From the NCBI RefSeq assembly GCF_025642155.1, contig NZ_CP106798.1, positions 6,262,001 to 6,326,000 on the forward strand: a DNA stretch of 64,000 bases, written 5' to 3'. The notes beneath the pieces were generated by a model. It was not told the DNA's origin. It did no database searches and saw nothing but the letters and a program-made list of their open reading frames with translations. Positions 43,206 through 52,944 of the stretch are shown one piece after another; within the stretch, counting starts at the first letter, position 1; every line of letters starts with the position of its first letter. The stretch is from Streptomyces sp. HUAS 15-9 (GTDB lineage Bacteria; Actinomycetota; Actinomycetes; Streptomycetales; Streptomycetaceae). Both the position numbers and the translations under genes were made by a program.

Positions 43206-43637
43206 TCAGGAGGGGGCGCGCCCTATCAACATGGCCCGGTGGTGGTACTCGTACAGGCCGTCGAAGAGGGGGCCGGTCAGCTCCAGGATCCGCTGGTCGT
43301 CACAGATCATGGACAGGCCGCGCAGGACTGCGTCCACACCGGGGGCTTCGGGGGCGTCGTAGCGTTCGTCGTCGAGGTCGGCCTCGTGGACGATCTCCGC
43401 GAGTTTCCACAGCACGGGGTCGGCCAGCTCGTAGTGGCGCAGGATCGTCTCGAAGGAGCAGTCGCCGCCGTGGTGGCCGAGTTCCACACCGCGCATGTCG
43501 AACGGGGTCGCGTCGTCCGGGACTTCGGCGGGGTCGGTGACGAAGACGAACTGCGCCTCCTTGTCGACGTGCCGGCGGATCAGCCAGGCGCAGGCGGCCC
43601 GGTCGATGTGGATCCCGGCGCGGGTCGCCCACTTCAT
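43206..43637 (-). CDS. Chromate resistance ChrB C-terminal-domain protein
   Basis: A 143-residue protein starting MKWATRAGIHIDRAACAWLI, with RRHVDKEAQFVFV, TPFDMRGVELGHHGGDCSFE and HYELADPVLWKLAEIVHEAD, the pattern of the ChrB C-terminal (chromate resistance exported-like) domain. It starts inside the stop of the upstream gene (ATGA overlap), so the two are co-translated halves of what is elsewhere a single ChrB. No ChrA transporter gene is in the window. Confidence 0.82.
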   Translation of the reverse strand: MKWATRAGIHIDRAACAWLIRRHVDKEAQFVFVTDPAEVPDDATPFDMRGVELGHHGGDCSFETILRHYELADPVLWKLAEIVHEADLDDERYDAPEAPGVDAVLRGLSMICDDQRILELTGPLFDGLYEYHHRAMLIGRAPS

Positions 43638-44182
43638 GCGCTCTTCCCCGGATGGCTTGCGGTCTTCGGCGCTGCGCCGGCTTTGCCGCCTGGCTCGTCG
43701 GCGAGGGCGCGTACGGCGGCATGTGCGCGGTCGCGTTCGAGGGGCGGGAAGAAGTCGCGTCGGCCGATACGTCGCAGTTCGGCGCGCAGCCTGCGGACGA
43801 CCGATGCGGCGTTGGCCGCGCCGGCGGCTTGGGTTGCCTGGTCGATGACGGCTTGGTACTCGGCGGCGCGGGCGGTGGCCATGGCCGTCGCCAGTTCGCG
43901 CTCCTGGGCGTGGGTTGCCGGCCGGGCCAGCCAGATGGAGGCGGAGCCACCGGCTTCGATGGCCTCGTCGGCAATCCACTCCAGCTGTTCGCGGGTGCGG
44001 GCGTCGGCGGGCAGTGTGACCAGGCCGTCGGAGAGCTGGGCGACTCCCAGGCGCTTGAGCTTGCGCCAGATCTTGATGCGGGGCGTGGAGGGTTCTCGGG
44101 GCATCCGGTAGGAGAGCAGGACCCACTCGCCCGGGTTGCGGGTCGGCCGGTCAGCGGTCACGGCGTGTACCGATCCCTGCAT
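43634..44182 (-). CDS. chrB: Chromate-sensing regulator ChrB, N-terminal-domain protein
   Basis: A 182-residue protein with WVLLSYRMPREPSTPRIKIW, RKLKRLGVAQLSDGLVTLP and REQLEWIADEAIEAGG, typical of the ChrB N-terminal domain, which in Ochrobactrum represses the chr operon and senses chromate (family knowledge). The ATG at 44182 and a GTG at 44161 are possible starts; neither has a clear ribosome site. A perfect 18-bp palindrome lies 44 bases upstream of the ATG. Confidence 0.8.
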   Translation of the reverse strand: MQGSVHAVTADRPTRNPGEWVLLSYRMPREPSTPRIKIWRKLKRLGVAQLSDGLVTLPADARTREQLEWIADEAIEAGGSASIWLARPATHAQERELATAMATARAAEYQAVIDQATQAAGAANAASVVRRLRAELRRIGRRDFFPPLERDRAHAAVRALADEPGGKAGAAPKTASHPGKSA

Positions 44183-44258: not shown

Positions 44259-45341
44259 TCAAGTGGACACGGGCGGGAGCGGAAGGGTGTGGAGGGTGAT
44301 CCATACGACGGCGCCTCCGTCGGGGTGGTTGAAGGCGCCGTACGCGCCATCGGCTGCGCGGGCGATGGCGGCGGTGATGGCCAGTCCGAGGCCGGTTCCC
44401 GTGGTGGCGCGGGAGCGGTCGGCCTGGGTGAAGCGGTCGAAGGCGTGTGGAAGGAAGTCGGGCGGAAAGCCGGGGCCGTGGTCTCGGACCTCGATGCGGA
44501 TCTGCTTCTCGTAGGGGCGGGCGGTCACTTCAACGGGGCCGCGGCCGTGCTGCTGGGCGTTGTGGAGAAGGTTCGTCACCGCTCGCTCCAGCCGGTCGCT
44601 CGGGATGGCGGCGGTCAGTCCGGCGGGGCAGTCGACGGTGACGGCCCTGCCAGGGGAGCCGTTGCGGAGACGGGCGGCCACGCTGCGCAGGAGAGGGGCC
44701 AGGTCGTGCACCGTCGACCCGGCCGGGGTGGTGTCGCGACGGTCGGTGCGGGCCAGGAGCAGCAGGTCCTCGGCGAGCTGGACGAGCCGTTCGGTCTCCT
44801 CGTGCGCGGAGACGAGGGCGGCGTGCAGTTCGGTGGCGCCGCGGGGGTGCCGTAGGGCGAGTTCGATCTCGGTGCGTAGCAGGCTGAGCGGGGTGCGCAG
44901 TTCGTGGCTGGCGTCGGCGACGAAGAGCCGCTCATGGTCCAGGGCGGTCTGAAGCCGGGTGAGCATGTCGTTGAGGGTGGTGGCGAGGCGGGCGATCTCG
45001 TCGCGGCTGGGGGGCACGTCGAGGCGGTAGCCGGGGGTGTCCTCGGTGACGGCGGCGGCTTGGGTGCGCATGCGTTCCACCGGGCGCAGGGCCGCGGCGG
45101 CCAGCAGGTAGGCGCCGATGGCGGCCAGCACGAACACGATGGGCAGTGCCGTGAGCAGCTCGCGCAGCAGGTCGTCGAGGGCTTCCTGCTGGGCCTGTTG
45201 GGCGATGCCGGTGGCGGTGCCGTATTCGCTCTGGGCCTCGCGGAAGCGGCTGAGGGTGAGGTAGCCGGCGCCGGTCAGGACCAGGGCCATCACGGCGGCG
45301 AAGATCGCGGTGAGGCGGATGCGGAGCGGGATGCGGTTCAT
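44259..45341 (-). CDS. Sensor histidine kinase (EnvZ/PhoR type)
   Basis: A 360-residue membrane kinase: segment 1 at about 8-30, a short extracytoplasmic loop, segment 2 at about 66-86, HAMP domain, H box ADASHELRTPLS (His about 146), N box NLLHNAQQHG, and G boxes RDHGPGFPP and GTGLGLAI. The short sensor loop suggests sensing in or at the membrane. ATG start overlaps the response regulator stop by four bases. Confidence 0.92.
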   Translation of the reverse strand: MNRIPLRIRLTAIFAAVMALVLTGAGYLTLSRFREAQSEYGTATGIAQQAQQEALDDLLRELLTALPIVFVLAAIGAYLLAAAALRPVERMRTQAAAVTEDTPGYRLDVPPSRDEIARLATTLNDMLTRLQTALDHERLFVADASHELRTPLSLLRTEIELALRHPRGATELHAALVSAHEETERLVQLAEDLLLLARTDRRDTTPAGSTVHDLAPLLRSVAARLRNGSPGRAVTVDCPAGLTAAIPSDRLERAVTNLLHNAQQHGRGPVEVTARPYEKQIRIEVRDHGPGFPPDFLPHAFDRFTQADRSRATTGTGLGLAITAAIARAADGAYGAFNHPDGGAVVWITLHTLPLPPVST

Positions 45342-46036
45342 GGTGTGCGGGTGGTGGTGCGGCCGCCGTCGCGGCGGATCCGGTATCCGGCGCCGCGGAC
45401 GGTCTCGACGGCCCGGGTGCCGTAGGGGCGGTCGATCTTGTCGCGCAGGGCCTTGATGTGGGCGTCGACCACGTTGGAGCCGGGGCTTGTGCCCAGGTCC
45501 CAGCAGTGCTCGACGAGCATGGCGCGGGTCAGCACGGTGCCGGGGCGGCGCAGGAGCGCCTCCAACAGCGCGTACTCCTTGCCGGTCAGCGAGATCTCCT
45601 CCTCGCCGCGTTGCACAGTGCGCGTGGCCGGGTCCAGACGCAGATCGCCGGCGGTGAGGACGGCCGGGCGCTCGAACGGACCACGGCGGATCATCACCCG
45701 CAGCCGTGCGAAGAGCTCCTCCAGGCTGAACGGTTTGGTCAGGTAGTCGTCCGCTCCTCCGTCCAGGCCGCGCACGCGGTCGGCGACTGCGTCCTTGGCG
45801 GTCAGCATGAGCACCGGCAGCCACACACCGCGTTGCCGGAGGGTTACGCAGACCTCGAAGCCGTCCAGGCCCGGCAGCGTCACGTCCAGCACCATCGCGT
45901 CGTAGGCGGCCACGTCGGTGAGGGCGAGGGCCTGCGGGCCGTCGGGAGCCGTGTCGACGGCATAGCCTTCCTCTGTCAGGGCCCGGCACAGCAGGTCCCG
46001 CATCTTGGGCTCGTCCTCGACCACCAGGATCCGCAT
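45338..46036 (-). CDS. OmpR-family response regulator
   Basis: A 232-residue regulator: receiver domain with phospho-acceptor about Asp51 (MVLDVTLPG) and TKPFS lysine, then a winged-helix DNA-binding domain (LTGKEYALLEALLRRPGTVL; VVDAHIKALRDKI). First gene of the RR-kinase operon; divergent from the DUF1259 lipoprotein gene with a large inverted repeat between them. Confidence 0.93.
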   Translation of the reverse strand: MRILVVEDEPKMRDLLCRALTEEGYAVDTAPDGPQALALTDVAAYDAMVLDVTLPGLDGFEVCVTLRQRGVWLPVLMLTAKDAVADRVRGLDGGADDYLTKPFSLEELFARLRVMIRRGPFERPAVLTAGDLRLDPATRTVQRGEEEISLTGKEYALLEALLRRPGTVLTRAMLVEHCWDLGTSPGSNVVDAHIKALRDKIDRPYGTRAVETVRGAGYRIRRDGGRTTTRTP

Positions 46037-46090
46037 CGCACCTTCCCTCGTCCGCCGTCACCGCGCACGTCGTCGCACCCTTCACGATCC

Positions 46091-46160
46091 CCGCCGCTGA
46101 TGAAGGTGGCATGAAGTCACCCGAGTGGGTGGGTCTTCATGGCAACTTCATCAGCGGCGG
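46091..46160. promoter_or_regulatory. 26-bp inverted repeat in the divergent RR/lipoprotein promoter
   Basis: Left arm 46091-46116 and right arm 46135-46160 are inverse complements except for two mismatches. Each arm contains two ATGAAG (or CTTCAT) hexamers 11 bases apart, the spacing typical of tandem OmpR-family binding sites. It is the likely site by which the regulator controls its own operon and the lipoprotein operon. Confidence 0.65.
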
Positions 46161-46212
46161 CTTCGCTGAGTTACACAGGCACCTTCGACAACGACCCCGA
46201 CGAGGAGTGGTC

Positions 46213-47214
46213 ATGTCACCCCGTTCGCGCACGAAGCCGACCGCAGGGACGGCGGCTGCGCTCCTGCTGGTGGCGAGCACCGGCCTGATGGCAGGCTGCG
46301 GCACCCAGACGAGAAGCCACGCCGGCGGCGGTACCGGTGTCGTCGCGGCGCAGGCCGCCTCCCGGCACCAGCACCTTGAACAGCCCGTCCAGACCACCGA
46401 GGCGGACTGGAAGCCGGTCGCCGATGCCCTCGGCCGCACTGGAACGCTGATGAAGGGCACCGTGTACCGCGTCCCGCTGCCCCGCAAGGACCTCACGGTC
46501 ACCACCCAGGGCGTGACCGTGAAACCGGGCCTGTCGCTCGGCGGCTACGTGGCCTTCGCCAAGTACGAGCACGAGACCATGCTCATGGGCGACCTGGTCG
46601 TCACCGAGGACGAACTGCCCAAGGTCACCGACGCGCTGCAGGCCGCCGGGATCGAGCAGACGGCCCTGCACAAGCACCTGCTCCAGCAGTCCCCAGCGAT
46701 CTGGTGGACGCACATCGACGCCATGGGCAACCCGGTCACTCTGGCCAAGGGCCTGAAGCCCGCGCTCGCCGCCACCGCCATCCCGCCCGCCTCGCCGCCC
46801 CCGGCCACCCAGCCGCCCATCGACCTGAACACCGCCGGCATCGACAAGGCACTCGGTCGCAAGGGCACGGCTGACGGCGGCATCTACAAGTTCTCCATCG
46901 CCCGCGCGAACACCGTCACCGACGGCACCCACGTGCTGCCGCCCGCGCTCGGCATCACCACCGGCATCAACTTCCAGCCCCTGGGCGGCAACAAGGCCGC
47001 CATCAACGGCGACTTCGTGATGACCGCACCTGAGGTGCAGAAGGTCATCCAGGCTCTGCGCAAGGGAGGCATCGATATCGTCGAGCTCCACAACCACTCT
47101 CTGACCGACCAGCCGCGCCTGTTCTACCTGCACTTCTGGGCCACCGGTGACGGCGTCACCCTGGCCAAGGCACTCCGACCGGCCCTTGACGCGACCGCCC
47201 TGGCTCCGGCGTGA
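46213..47214 (+). CDS. Lipoprotein with duplicated DUF1259 (LppY/LpqO-like) domains
   Basis: A 333-residue lipoprotein with lipobox LMAGC at about residues 25-29. Two related halves follow: WKPVADALGRTGTLMKGTVY and IDKALGRKGTADGGIYKFSI each start a DUF1259 domain, with matched HETMLMGDLVVTEDELPKV and AINGDFVMTAPEVQKV blocks and HxH-type motifs (ALHKHLL; ELHNHSL). The function is unknown; conserved histidines hint at metal binding. ATG at 46213 follows GAGGAGTGGTC. Confidence 0.82.
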   Translation: MSPRSRTKPTAGTAAALLLVASTGLMAGCGTQTRSHAGGGTGVVAAQAASRHQHLEQPVQTTEADWKPVADALGRTGTLMKGTVYRVPLPRKDLTVTTQGVTVKPGLSLGGYVAFAKYEHETMLMGDLVVTEDELPKVTDALQAAGIEQTALHKHLLQQSPAIWWTHIDAMGNPVTLAKGLKPALAATAIPPASPPPATQPPIDLNTAGIDKALGRKGTADGGIYKFSIARANTVTDGTHVLPPALGITTGINFQPLGGNKAAINGDFVMTAPEVQKVIQALRKGGIDIVELHNHSLTDQPRLFYLHFWATGDGVTLAKALRPALDATALAPA

Positions 47215-47585: not shown

Positions 47586-47629
47586 GGTCGTCCCGCCGCT
47601 CTCGGTGGACAGCGAGCGGCGGGACGACC
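47586..47629 (+). terminator. Strong hairpin before the beta-propeller gene
   Basis: GGTCGTCCCGCCGCTC (47586-47601) pairs perfectly with GAGCGGCGGGACGACC (47614-47629); GGCCC and GGGCC extend the stem. It ends the lipoprotein operon or attenuates into the next gene, only 35 bases on. Confidence 0.85.
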
Positions 47630-47664
47630 GGGCCGCTTCACCACCGAACCGGGAAAGCCCGCAC

Positions 47665-48708
47665 ATGATCCGTCGTCCCAGCCCCCGCGCCCTGCTCGCC
47701 CTGACTGCCGGTCTGGTCCTCGCCGTCGTCGCCGCCGTGGCCGGCGTCCTCCTCACGCGGGGCGGTGGCCAGCCGCCCAAGGTGGCGCTGCCGCTCCGCC
47801 TGGTGAAGGAGATCGCCCTGCCGGGCGACAGCTCCCGCTTCGACTACGCGAGCCTCGACCCCGACCGCGGGCTGCTGTTCATCGCCCACCTCGGCGCGAG
47901 CCAGGTCATCGAGGTGGACGTTCACACGGACCGCGTCGTGCGCACCATCGACGGACTGCCCGGCGTCCACGGCGTGCTGGTCGTCCCGTCCCGCCACACG
48001 GTGTACGCCACCTCCACCGACGCCAACCAGGTGGCCGCCATCGACGAGGCCACGGGCACCGTGCTGCACCGAAGCCCCACCGGCGACTACCCCGACGGTT
48101 TGGCCTACGACCCGCTACACGGCACGGTGTGGACCACCAACGAGTCCGGCGGCTCGGAGACCGTCGTCGACGCCGCGACCGGAGCATCCCGCGGCACCGT
48201 CACCCTCGGCGGCGAGGCCGGAAACGTCGCCTACGACCCCACCACCCGGCAGATGCTCGTCGACGTCCAGAGCCGCAACGAACTCGCCGTCATCGACCCG
48301 ACCACCCTCCACATCACCCGCCGCGTGCCCCTGCCCGGCTGCGACCACGACCACGGCCTCACCCTCGCCCCCACCGATCACCTGGCCTTCGTCGCCTGCG
48401 ACGGCAACGCCCGCCTGCTGACCGTCGACCTGACCACCTGGCGCATCACCGGCAGCGACCGGGTCGGGCAGGACCCCGACGTGCTCGCCTACGACCCCGG
48501 CGCCCGCCACTTGTATGTGGCCGCCGAGTCCGGCTGGGTCACCACCGCCGACAACCGAAACGGGCGCCTGACCGTCACCGGCCGCGCCCACCTCGCGGAC
48601 GGCGCCCACGTCGTCGCCGTCGACCCCACCACCCACCGCAGCTACTACCCCGTCCCGGACGGCTCCGACGGACACCCCGCGCTGCTCGTGTACCGGCCCG
48701 GACCGTGA
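47665..48708 (+). CDS. Membrane-anchored YVTN-type beta-propeller protein
   Basis: A 347-residue protein with an N-terminal membrane segment (ALLALTAGLVLAVVAAVAGV) and a repeated propeller fold: GLLFIAHLGASQVIEVDVHT, VYATSTDANQVAAIDEATG, TVWTTNESGGSETVVDAATG and further blades. Related proteins bind metals or act as extracellular redox or assembly factors; the specific role is unknown. ATG at 47665. Confidence 0.82.
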   Translation: MIRRPSPRALLALTAGLVLAVVAAVAGVLLTRGGGQPPKVALPLRLVKEIALPGDSSRFDYASLDPDRGLLFIAHLGASQVIEVDVHTDRVVRTIDGLPGVHGVLVVPSRHTVYATSTDANQVAAIDEATGTVLHRSPTGDYPDGLAYDPLHGTVWTTNESGGSETVVDAATGASRGTVTLGGEAGNVAYDPTTRQMLVDVQSRNELAVIDPTTLHITRRVPLPGCDHDHGLTLAPTDHLAFVACDGNARLLTVDLTTWRITGSDRVGQDPDVLAYDPGARHLYVAAESGWVTTADNRNGRLTVTGRAHLADGAHVVAVDPTTHRSYYPVPDGSDGHPALLVYRPGP

Positions 48709-48734: not shown

Positions 48735-48752
48735 ATGTAACCATGGTTGCAT
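48735..48752. promoter_or_regulatory. 18-bp palindrome at the start of the FetA-like gene
   Basis: ATGTAACCATGGTTGCAT differs by one base from the perfect palindrome upstream of chrB. It overlaps the ATG at 48751, so a bound regulator would block the start region of the ABC gene. Confidence 0.75.
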
Positions 48753-49457
48753 GACTGCGGTGATAGGTGGAGATGGGTCCGCGGAGACGAGCGCGTTCGC
48801 CCTGGACCAGGTCACGGTCCGCCGCGGCGACGCGACCCTGCTGGAAGAGATCACCTGCTCCATCCCCGCCTCGGCCTGCACCGCTCTGGTCGGACCGAGC
48901 GGCGCGGGCAAGACCACCCTCCTGCGCCTCCTCAACCGGCTCGAAGAACCCACGACGGGACCGTCGCCTTCCGGGGCCGCCCCCTGCCGGCTTGGAACGT
49001 CCTGACCCTGCGCCGCCAGGTCACCCTCGTAGGCCAGCAACCCGTGCTGCTCACCGACACCGTCCTGAACGACCTGCGCGTCGGCCGCCCCGACCTCGAC
49101 CGGCACGAAGCCGCTGCCCTGCTCGACCGCGCCCACCTGCCCGCCACCTACCTCGACCGCGCCACCACGAACCTCTCCGGCGGCGAAGCCCAACGCGTCT
49201 GCCTGGCCAGAGCCCTCGCCATCACTCCCCAGGCACTGCTCCTGGACGAACCCACCTCCGCCCTCGACGCGGTCGGCACCGCCGCCGTCGAAGGCGTCGT
49301 ACACGAACTGGTCACCGACGGCCTGACCGTGGTCCTGGTCAGCCACAACACCGCACAGGCCCGCCGCCTCTCCGACCACGTCCTCGTCCTCGACGACGGC
49401 CGCCTCGCCGAACAGGGCGAGGCCCACCGCGTCGACTACCTGAAGGAGCCCGCGTGA
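48751..49457 (+). pseudogene. FetA-like ABC transporter ATP-binding gene, frameshifted
   Basis: The ATG at 48751 opens a frame with FALDQVTVRRGDATLLEEIT, Walker A VGPSGAGKTTLLRLLNRLEE, then at about 48957 it runs into stop-prone sequence, while the expected continuation (GTVAFRGRPLPAWNVLTLRR; signature NLSGGEAQRVCLARAL; LLLDEPTSALDAV; VSHN) lies in another frame to 49457. One missing base at GACGGGACC explains it. It may be a real mutation or an assembly error; the rest is well conserved. Confidence 0.85.
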
Positions 49458-50260
49458 ACCCCGCCGTCCCCACCTGGGCGGGAGTCGCCGCCTCCGCCGC
49501 CCTCATCGCCCTCACCATCACCGTGGCCTGGCACGGACGCCTCCACCTGGCCCGTGACATCGCCGTCGCCGCCGTCCGCGCTGCACTTCAACTCGCCGCG
49601 GTCGGTGCCCTGTTGCTGCTGGTGTTCCGTCACACCGGACTGGCGGGTGCCATCGGCTGGCTCGGCATCATGGTGCTCGTCGCCGGGCAGGTGGCCGCCC
49701 GCCGCACCCCCGCCCTGCCCAAAGCCCTCCTCACGGCGACCGTCGCGATCACCCTCGGTACGGCGGCGACCATGGGCACCCTGCTCGCCCTCGGTGTGAT
49801 CGCCACCCAGGCCCGCGTCGTTATCCCCGTCGGCGGCATGGTCGTCTCCGGCGCCATGCAGGCCACCGCCCTCGCCCTGACCCGCCTGCACGACGAGGTC
49901 CGCACGGCCCGCCCTGCCATCGAGGCCCGCCTCAGCCTCGGCCTCTCCGCCACCGACGCCTTCGCCCCGCACCAGCGCACCATCGTCCGTACGGCTCTGA
50001 TCCCTGCCCTCGACTCCACCAAGACCGTCGGCGTCATCAGCCTGCCCGGCGCCATGACCGGCCTCATCCTCGCCGGAGTCGACCCCTTCACGGCGATCCG
50101 CTACCAGATCGTCGTGATGTACATGCTGCTCGCCGCAGCGGCGCTCGCCGCGCTCACTGCCGTCCGCCTCGCCGAACGCGCCCTGTTCGACGATGCCCAC
50201 CGACTGCGTCCCCTTGAAGGGGCTGAAGGCGCCAGGGCCACTTCCGGCTCCCTGGGCTGA
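49454..50260 (+). CDS. FetB-like ABC permease (UPF0014)
   Basis: A 268-residue integral membrane protein with about seven hydrophobic segments. LARDIAVAAVRAALQLAAVG, VVIPVGGMVVSGAMQATALA and LSATDAFAPHQRTIVRTALI then PALDSTKTVGVISLPGAM match the FetB/YbbM family. E. coli FetAB exports iron and protects against peroxide (family knowledge). GTG start overlaps the ATPase stop (GTGA). With the ATPase frameshifted, the transporter may be inactive unless the frameshift is an artefact. Confidence 0.87.
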   Translation: MNPAVPTWAGVAASAALIALTITVAWHGRLHLARDIAVAAVRAALQLAAVGALLLLVFRHTGLAGAIGWLGIMVLVAGQVAARRTPALPKALLTATVAITLGTAATMGTLLALGVIATQARVVIPVGGMVVSGAMQATALALTRLHDEVRTARPAIEARLSLGLSATDAFAPHQRTIVRTALIPALDSTKTVGVISLPGAMTGLILAGVDPFTAIRYQIVVMYMLLAAAALAALTAVRLAERALFDDAHRLRPLEGAEGARATSGSLG

Positions 50261-50487: not shown

Positions 50488-52944
50488 ATGGCGACCAGTC
50501 TCGTCCCCCAGACCACCGACTTCACCCTGGACGTCCTTGGCCGCTACGTCTGCAACGGCCTTGACGAGGCCCTGGCCAGCACTGATACGACTGCTCATGT
50601 CGATGCACGGCCCTTCGATCTGATCGTGCTGGGTGGCGGGAGTTTCGGGTCGATCCTCGCCGGCCACCTGTTCTACAACGACACTTCGCACGCACATCGA
50701 ATTCTTGTACTAGAGGCTGGGTCGTTCGCGCTCCCGGAACACGTGCAGAATCTCCCGCCCCAGCTGAGCCCCGGAGAAGTGTGGGGAGTTCCGTGGAATT
50801 CGGACAGTCCCCAGCCATGGAATCAGCGCTTCCCCGGTCTCGCCTTCTGTCCGGGCGGCCGGTCGCTGTTCTGGGGCGGATGGTCACCGTATTTCATCGA
50901 CTCCGAACTGGCCGGATGGCCCAAGTCCGTGAGCGACGATCTCACCGCGGGCGGTTACCTCGATACGGCAGCCGAGCAGATCGGCACTGCCCAGACCAAC
51001 GACTTCGTCTACGGCCCATTCCACCAGGCGCTGAAAGAGCGCCTGTTCGACGGATTGCGCGCCCGCGCGAACAACTCGACTGCCCTGGTGGGCAACCGGG
51101 GCACGCCGATGACCGCCAGCCGACCGAAGAAACAACTGCTGCACGAACTCGATGCCCCGCTCGCCGTGCAGTCAGCCTCCCCGCGCCCCGGCTTCTTCCC
51201 GTTCAACAAGTTCAACGCCATGCAACTGCTCATCCGGGCCGCTCGGTTGGCCCAAGCCGAAGCGGAAAACAGCGCCGTGGGCGGTCCCGGCGAGCGGGAC
51301 GTGATGAAGCGGCTCATGCTCGTCGACCGCACCAGGGTCATCCGCCTGGAACGGCAGGGCGGCCGCATCACACGGGTGGTCACCAATCGGGGCACGATCG
51401 ACGTCCCCGCGAGCGGCCACGTCTTCCTCGGCCTGGGCACGGTGGAAAACACCCGGGTCGCCCTGGCCACACTGCCGAACACGCACGGCCTGATCGGCCG
51501 CAACCTCATGGCACACCTGCGCTCCAACGTGACGATCCGCGTGCCGCGCACCGCCCTTGGCAACGCCCTGGCCGGCGTCAAGGAACTCGCCGTCTCAGCC
51601 CTGTTCGTCAAGGGCGTTCACACCCACACCGACGGCAGCCTCGGGCACTTCCACCTCCAGATCACGGCCTCCGGCGTCGGGGCGCTGGGCACCGACTCCG
51701 AGGCGGAGCTGTTCAAGAAGATCCCCGACATCGACACGCTCGACAGCTTCCGCGACCTGACGGACGAGTGGGTCGTCGTGACCTTGCGCGGTATCGGCGA
51801 GATGACCGGCGACAAGACGTCGCCCGACCCGGAGAACCGGGTCGCCCTGGACGTGCTCGGCCCGCAGGGCCCTTACGACTACGGCCAGCCCCGGGCACTC
51901 GTACGCCTGGAGGCGCAGGACCCGGCCGATCCGATCGGACGCAACATGGCGCTGTGGGAGGCTCTGGACCGCGCCGCCGACGAGGTCGCACTGATCCTGG
52001 CGAACGGCGGGCCGGTCCAGTACCTCGGCAGCGGTGGCTGGCAGAACACCCCGCCGTCGACCGACGCCCGCCGCGACGCGCTTTCCTCCACCCACCACGA
52101 GAGCGGCACCCTCTGGATGGGGGAGGACCCGGCATCCTCGGTGACCGATGTCTGGGGTCGTCTGCACGAGAGCGACAACCTCCACGCGGTGGGCCCGTGC
52201 GTCCTGCCGACCATCGGCTCGCCGAACCCCATGCTCTCCGGGGTCGCCCTGTCCCGCCGCACGGCCGACCACATCCAGCCCCGCCCGCAACCTCCGGCTC
52301 CCGAAGCCGGTTTCCGTCACCTCTTCGACGGCACCGACCGGACCTATCGCCTGTGGCGCGGTGTCGGCGGGGGCAGTTTCGCCCTGGTCGACGGCGCCAT
52401 CGTCGCCCAGCCCGGCGGTGCCGAACTGGGGCTGCTCTACTACGCGCGCCAGCCGTTCAGCGACTTCGTCCTCCGGCTGCAATTCCGCATCGGAACGGTC
52501 CAGGACAACTCCGGAATCTTCGTACGCTCTCGCGACCCACGACAGCCCGTCCCCGACCGGGCCGACCCCACCCGCCTGATCCCCTACAACAACCAGCACT
52601 GGGTCGCCGTCGACACCGGCTTCGAGATCCAGATCGACGAAACCGCAGCACCGGACGGCCAGGACATGCACCGCACTGGCGCCGTCTACGGGATTACCGT
52701 CCCGGCCGGCCAGGCTTACCAACGGCCCGCTCCGCTGCTCCCCTCGCAGTGGACGGACTACGAGATCGAGGTCCGCGGCGACACGTACACGGTCCGAGTG
52801 AACGGCACCCAGACCTCGCTGTTCACCAACACCGACACCTGGCGCGGCAAGCCGGCCACCGCAGACCCGACCTCGGGCTTCATCGGACTCCAGGCCCACA
52901 CGGGAAAGGTCGCCTTCCGGAACATCCGCATCAAGGAACTCTGA
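50488..52944 (+). CDS. GMC oxidoreductase fused to a DUF1080 (3-keto-disaccharide hydrolase-type) domain
   Basis: An 818-residue predicted cytoplasmic fusion with no signal peptide. Residues 1-600 are a GMC flavoenzyme: LIVLGGGSFGSILAGHLFYN binds FAD, FPFNKFNAMQLLIRAARLA and TVENTRVALATLPN follow, and the C-terminal catalytic region has THHESGTLWMG and PTIGSPNPML, giving a His and Asn pair near residues 537 and 579. Residues 609-818 are a DUF1080/3-keto-disaccharide hydrolase domain: FRHLFDGT, NSGIFVRSRDP, GFEIQIDETAAP, TGAVYGIT, GFIGLQAHTGKVAFRNIRIK. In known pathways a GMC or similar oxidase makes a 3-keto sugar and DUF1080 enzymes cleave the glycosidic bond. Stand-alone in the island, with its own upstream region and terminator. 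Confidence 0.85.
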   Translation: MATSLVPQTTDFTLDVLGRYVCNGLDEALASTDTTAHVDARPFDLIVLGGGSFGSILAGHLFYNDTSHAHRILVLEAGSFALPEHVQNLPPQLSPGEVWGVPWNSDSPQPWNQRFPGLAFCPGGRSLFWGGWSPYFIDSELAGWPKSVSDDLTAGGYLDTAAEQIGTAQTNDFVYGPFHQALKERLFDGLRARANNSTALVGNRGTPMTASRPKKQLLHELDAPLAVQSASPRPGFFPFNKFNAMQLLIRAARLAQAEAENSAVGGPGERDVMKRLMLVDRTRVIRLERQGGRITRVVTNRGTIDVPASGHVFLGLGTVENTRVALATLPNTHGLIGRNLMAHLRSNVTIRVPRTALGNALAGVKELAVSALFVKGVHTHTDGSLGHFHLQITASGVGALGTDSEAELFKKIPDIDTLDSFRDLTDEWVVVTLRGIGEMTGDKTSPDPENRVALDVLGPQGPYDYGQPRALVRLEAQDPADPIGRNMALWEALDRAADEVALILANGGPVQYLGSGGWQNTPPSTDARRDALSSTHHESGTLWMGEDPASSVTDVWGRLHESDNLHAVGPCVLPTIGSPNPMLSGVALSRRTADHIQPRPQPPAPEAGFRHLFDGTDRTYRLWRGVGGGSFALVDGAIVAQPGGAELGLLYYARQPFSDFVLRLQFRIGTVQDNSGIFVRSRDPRQPVPDRADPTRLIPYNNQHWVAVDTGFEIQIDETAAPDGQDMHRTGAVYGITVPAGQAYQRPAPLLPSQWTDYEIEVRGDTYTVRVNGTQTSLFTNTDTWRGKPATADPTSGFIGLQAHTGKVAFRNIRIKEL

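Follow-up and report, generated by a model that had tools for sequence, protein, structure and literature searches.

That glycosides can be broken down via 3-keto sugars as well as by classical hydrolysis has been recognised recently, and to our knowledge the described cases divide the work between an oxidoreductase and a DUF1080 (or CarBC) protein on different chains. Could both steps instead reside on one polypeptide? This question is raised by an open reading frame (ORF) within a 64,000-nucleotide stretch of Streptomyces sp. HUAS 15-9 (contig NZ_CP106798.1, positions 6,262,001 to 6,326,000; hereafter the window), in which a GMC-type flavoprotein is fused to a DUF1080 domain. Based on sequence comparison and predicted structures, we propose that the product is a cytoplasmic enzyme that would cleave glycosides in two steps, by oxidation and then elimination or hydration, a reading to which we assign a probability of roughly 0.55. 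We favour it because family-typical residues are kept, the C-terminal fold is nearest to eliminase/hydratases, and the GMC fold is nearest to sugar and C-glycoside oxidoreductases.

Two domains on one chain

The fusion protein is encoded by a single intact ORF with an ATG start and no internal stop (Table 1). Its GC content by codon position is coding-like (0.68, 0.49, 0.86), and third-position GC (GC3) for the other window ORFs picked by the same script, which were filtered for GC3 >0.82, is 0.82-0.98 and mostly >0.86. Stops are present in the matching frame of the reverse complement, and a promoter and terminator scan gave no signal exceeding shuffled sequences. The predicted full-length model has a mean predicted local distance difference test score (pLDDT) of 84.0 and a predicted template modelling score (pTM) of 0.86. 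A database search with the window protein returned 2492 matches at E<=1e-3, and PF06439 and PF05199 occur together in all 120 matches listed (query included), and likewise in all 120 listed when only the GMC half served as query; chance or a frame artefact as the source of the fusion is therefore ruled out. An earlier reading of the sequence alone had placed both domains in one frame, and the ORF, its translation and Pfam bear out its coordinates and domain order.

The DUF1080 half matches its entire profile (PF06439, hmmscan E 1.3e-37, 130.1 bits against a gathering cut-off of 26.8, profile positions 1-187 of 187), as anticipated for a complete domain starting near residue 609. No LamG-type family matched at E<=0.1, and when the domain was folded alone, 13 of 14 DUF1080 entries outranked every lectin and carbohydrate-binding module among the matches listed; a C-terminal part consisting of nothing more than a LamG lectin is thereby ruled out. 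The isolated model is likewise closer to solved 3-keto-glycoside eliminase/hydratases than to any lectin among the matches listed. It resembles BT2157-type proteins (PDB 8rr2, 9fbe, 8tda, 3osd; 18-29% identity in structural alignments) in its fold and in N-S-G, E-x-Q and G-L-Q motifs; unlike the fusion, these are separate proteins that need a separate oxidoreductase (the PDB name is probable secreted glycosyl hydrolase). The fusions vary little or not at all in N-S-G, E-x-Q-I-D and Trp755, His804 is kept in 44/50 aligned rows, and E-x-Q-I-D is also invariant across a set of 21 rows (19 fusions and two other Streptomyces DUF1080 domains). These residues are family-conserved columns rather than catalytic residues known from a characterised member, and the portions of PMC9765024 and PMC11003636 that we consulted name no DUF1080 catalytic residues. 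One might still suppose that the GMC domain is the sole enzyme and that DUF1080, its fold retained, serves as a carbohydrate-binding module holding the substrate; we regard this as unlikely, given the fold ranking, the near-invariance of these motifs and their sharing with solved DUF1080 proteins. A further DUF1080 fusion, ThuA-DUF1080 (PF06283 + PF06439; L003:739-2082), occurs in Streptomyces.

The GMC half is recognised by PF05199 at residues 491-588 (hmmscan E 1.9e-12) and by a Rossmann flavin adenine dinucleotide (FAD) motif, GGGSFG at residues 49-54, whose glycines are kept in 45-49 of 50 aligned rows. This combination of PF05199 with a dinucleotide FAD motif is that of the GMC superfamily. 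Of the Pfam families expected by the sequence-only reading, PF05199 and PF06439 were found, but the GMC N-terminal domain PF00732 had no match at E<=0.1; the fold nevertheless aligns over residues 26-602, and the N-terminal half therefore rests on the Rossmann motif and the fold. The predicted FAD motif and His/Asn region were both recovered. His537, the proposed catalytic base, falls by alignment on the H-x-x-G-T motif of pyranose oxidases and is taken as the counterpart of PsG3Ox H440, and Asn580 as that of N484, so that the His/Asn pair of the pyranose and C-glycoside oxidase family is present. A weak Glyco_hydro_65C match in the fusion protein (13.1 bits, under cut-off) was disregarded.

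In predicted fold the GMC part is nearest to pyranose and C-glycoside oxidases. Glycoside 3-oxidases and C-glycoside oxidases (PsG3Ox, 7qf8/7qva; DaCGO1, 8qve; and 7dve, which we take to be CarA) share the GMC fold and the His/Asn pair; these oxidases differ from the fusion in standing alone, with CarB/CarC-type deglycosidases encoded by separate neighbour genes in the case of PsG3Ox. Their flavinylation-site motif (His beside Trp, then Thr; from the motif list in the part of PMC10807413 we consulted) is absent from the window protein, which has LFWGGW where 9fl2 has IHWTCA.

Proposed activity and family distribution

In the proposed mechanism the FAD-dependent GMC domain would use His537 and Asn580 to oxidise a glucoside hydroxyl, most likely at C3, giving a 3-keto-glycoside. 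With both domains on one chain and roughly a dozen linker residues between them, this unstable intermediate would have a shorter way to travel. We infer the C3 position along with both activities, their coupling, their location, the substrate and any role in metal stress. A different arrangement, in which oxidation by the GMC domain takes place at C2 or C1 or on an alcohol that is no glycoside, and DUF1080 handles either an unrelated keto-sugar or, by a different route, the GMC product itself, draws some strength from the presence of fructose dehydrogenase, choline oxidase and pyranose 2-oxidase among the nearest GMC folds, and from PsG3Ox itself, which according to the excerpted text of PMC10646112 acts at C2 when it oxidises glucose and at C3 on glycosides. 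We nonetheless consider it rather improbable, since the matches listed constantly pair the GMC domain with a family that is known to act on 3-keto sugars. Single-chain oxidation and cleavage, as the earlier reading had suggested, is thus a plausible prediction from residues and folds that fit in both domains, and is better supported than the lectin-like alternative.

The two-step logic has a precedent in the lactose route of Caulobacter, where the oxidoreductase LacABC is followed by a DUF1080 protein (CCNA_01705); as far as the excerpt of PMC9007349 goes, that route is putatively periplasmic and uses separate genes and a three-part dehydrogenase. The same excerpt describes BT2157 as a 3-ketotrehalose hydrolase. 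By eye no signal peptide is evident in the fusion protein, whose N-terminal region (TLDVxGRYVCNGLDEA) shows conservation as far as the Rossmann strand, and the protein is probably cytoplasmic. The gene is also carried by Nitrosospira, which are ammonia-oxidising chemolithoautotrophs. Together, the absence of an evident signal peptide and the presence of the gene in ammonia oxidisers suggest an internal glycoside rather than a scavenged plant glycoside; the substrate would probably be small, and a trehalose-like or malto-oligosaccharide-like compound is a guess.

The fusion is not unique to the window genome, as database matches extend over several phyla. Sources include Streptomyces, Nonomuraea, Chloroflexota, Gemmatimonadaceae, Acidobacteriota, Nitrospira, Nitrosospira, Deltaproteobacteria/Myxococcota, Methylococcaceae and Paraburkholderia, with more distant fusions on Rhizobium and Nostoc plasmids; a match over >=80% of the protein was found in only 2 of 72,556 plasmid records. 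Among the open-licence papers listed, judged by title, abstract start and term counts, none described a GMC-DUF1080 fusion or its link to chromate genes. The layout, which the sequence-only reading could not connect to any described enzyme, is thus apparently unstudied but far from singular: it is a broad, widespread family.

Within genera the fusion is sparse. Counting matches at E<=1e-60 with the centre genome included, we found it in 2/372 Streptomyces genomes (the window genome and one partial match), 2/396 Actinomycetota genomes and 3/347 genomes of the phylum of acidobacterium L015; around Nitrosospira it occurs in 1/369 genomes of the class sample but in 15/81 of its family. No full-length match was present in 40 relatives of the window genome, and three Streptomyces loci (L022, L024, L025) hold gene remnants only. 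In the genus of Nonomuraea basaltis, 7/54 genomes have a match, and four of the seven matches stop after the GMC part (two of the four Pfam-checked). Two such relatives without DUF1080 (L041:8174-10252 and L043:8522-10453) are ~36% identical to the window protein. Two GMC-only proteins cluster, in a 34-row tree, with fusions L035 and L027 (support 100/100), and therefore DUF1080 was either lost there or joined twice; the branches of L027, L035 and L028 are long and their positions uncertain.

Association with chromate-resistance genes

The window contains no dedicated glycoside-utilisation locus, as no sugar transporter or glycoside hydrolase occurs among the neighbours scanned. The genes upstream of the fusion instead form a chromate-determinant-like row (Table 1). 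As in the chromate determinant of Arthrobacter FB24, ChrB, a ChrL-like DUF1259 protein and a ChrK-like WD40/YncE propeller are present, the ChrK and ChrL names being matched to the FB24 record by gene order. The two differ in that FB24 has chrA and chrJ (ChrJ is a malate:quinone oxidoreductase) and no GMC-DUF1080 gene in the stretch viewed, whereas in the window FetAB and the fusion are present; the ChrA chromate efflux transporter (PF02417) had no match across the whole window genome. The row is perhaps a reduced or altered determinant. A response regulator may occupy another frame at the kinase ORF (L056 has separate kinase and regulator genes), and the FetA-like gene, with Walker A in one frame and the remainder in another, is either broken or affected by a sequence error. 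Similar rows occur on Streptomyces mirabilis plasmid pI (chrA, ChrB, kinase, regulator, DUF1259, FetA, FetB and YncE; no fusion in the 20 kb viewed) and on pChr15 (kinase, regulator, DUF1259, chrA, ChrB and YncE; no fusion in the stretch viewed).

Table 1. Coordinates of the fusion gene, its parts and neighbouring genes (window positions unless a locus is named)
Feature	Position	Strand	Basis or remark
GMC-DUF1080 fusion protein, 818 amino acids	50488..52944	+	ORF list, translation, Pfam, database matches
GMC flavoprotein domain, residues ~26-602	50563..52293	+	structure-based limits
His537, proposed GMC catalytic base	52096..52098	+	49/50 aligned rows, query included
Asn580, partner residue of His537	52225..52227	+	50/50 aligned rows
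PF06439 3-keto-disaccharide hydrolase (DUF1080) domain, residues 608-816	52309..52935	+	Pfam, domain model, folds
E-x-Q-I-D motif (Glu713, Gln715, Asp717)	52624..52638	+	each 50/50 aligned rows
ChrB	43206..44126	-	Pfam (PF09828, E 2.8e-49)
Histidine kinase	44259..46112	-	N-terminal part of ORF looks out of frame by eye
DUF1259 (ChrL/LppY-LpqO-like)	46111..47214	+	72% identity to DUF1259 protein of FB24 determinant
Beta-propeller (ChrK-like)	47605..48708	+	48% identity to FB24 YncE/WD40 protein
ABC ATPase, FetA-like	48747..49457	+	similarity shifts frame near 48960
FetB-like permease (UPF0014)	49454..50260	+	similarity
GH13-like gene (L028)	L028:12412-14316		
GH13-like gene (L017)	L017:11745-13622		

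This neighbourhood is recurrent and is the more surprising part of the finding, although the link is not tight. ChrA, ChrB or DUF1259 lies beside the fusion in 13 of 41 loci (the window, L010, L013, L015, L018, L022, L024, L035, L047, L052, L054, L058 and L059), with flanks of at most ~10 kb examined and several loci having short flanks. Only these three markers were counted, and not major facilitator superfamily (MFS), FetAB, propeller or GH13 genes; the L035 ChrA was detected by Pfam and not by tblastn seeds. The 41 loci are the window and 40 of 45 scanned, after dropping four GMC-only Nonomuraea loci (0/4 with markers in their flanks) and L063, apparently on the same contig as L024; some genomes contribute two loci, and L022, L024 and L025 are gene pieces only.

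Genome-wide marker counts placed a cluster within ~8.5 kb of the gene in 11/33 genomes (those with a DUF1080-bearing match or fragment) against 0.21 expected, assuming uniform placement in each genome and marker clusters grouped by hand. When Streptomyces was represented by one genome and a syntenic Nitrosomonadaceae pair by one of its members, 6/26 remained against 0.19 expected (P ~1.6e-8). Three more Nitrosomonadaceae genomes lie outside the 33-genome calculation, two with DUF1259 nearby and one with none. By eye, marker-positive fusions occupy six places in the tree (L035; L015; Streptomyces; L052; L054; L018 with L047), with L022, L024, L058 and L059 outside it; the tree program's own count of four changes compares the chromate label only with four GH13 loci.

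These frequencies lend some weight to the possibility that the fusion is mainly a metal-stress enzyme, whose flavin or reducing keto-sugar product would reduce Cr(VI) or quinone, in a place comparable to that of ChrJ in Arthrobacter; the consulted part of PMC2751784 reports that deletion of chrJ, chrK or chrL lowers FB24 chromate resistance. Several observations weigh against this and against any tight functional link. Flanks are marker-free in 28/41 loci, and five of the 13 positives (the window, L010, L013, L022, L024) are Streptomyces and not independent. The window genome itself has no ChrA. The viewed stretches of the FB24, Chr15 and S. mirabilis determinants lack the fusion, and neither of the two plasmid records matching over >=80% has markers. 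Nitrosospira multiformis strains also differ, L016 being without markers and L018 with them. We therefore consider a primarily metal-directed role very unlikely. In the N. multiformis pair, both strains share the fusion and upstream efflux genes, while an MFS-DUF1259-ChrB block (L018:11010-14441) is present only in Nl12, reflecting a recent gain or loss.

Neighbours were also clustered without a prior list, and alpha-amylase-type (GH13-like) proteins lie near the fusion in four loci. On the Rhizobium plasmid (L028) the GH13-like gene starts at the fusion stop codon, or, reading from the first start codon, overlaps it, and in a Nitrospira metagenome-assembled genome (L017) it is second downstream, after a DUF6209 gene. 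These two proteins are 74% identical though their fusions are only ~44% identical, possibly through horizontal spread or as a strongly conserved partner; their best match is malto-oligosyltrehalose trehalohydrolase, far under the family cut-off. A distant relative (26%) occurs in L027, and L011 has a different, TreS-like protein >6 kb away. The DUF6209 gene (PF19714; L017:10740-11459) adjoins the Nitrospira fusion and DUF6209 is listed as an extra domain of P0073 (996 amino acids); it is a possible functional partner.

Implications

Fused in nature, a given flavoenzyme is tied to the eliminase that it feeds; the fusion offers a ready one-protein biocatalyst and probably puts 3-keto chemistry inside the cell. 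At its most speculative, an idea to which we give very little credence, a single-chain oxidise-and-eliminate enzyme would make enediol-type keto sugars (2-hydroxy-3-keto-glycal, 3-keto-glucose) from an internal glycoside, and its repeated recruitment to chromate-resistance gene groups would be due to reduction or chelation of cytoplasmic Cr(VI) and iron by these products or by the reduced flavin. If true, metal detoxification would here have a sugar-fuelled step of a kind hitherto undescribed. The link to chromate genes, seen also in ammonia oxidisers, for which plant glycosides are no source of nutrition, raises the question of which internal glycoside the enzyme would cleave and why this is associated with metals.
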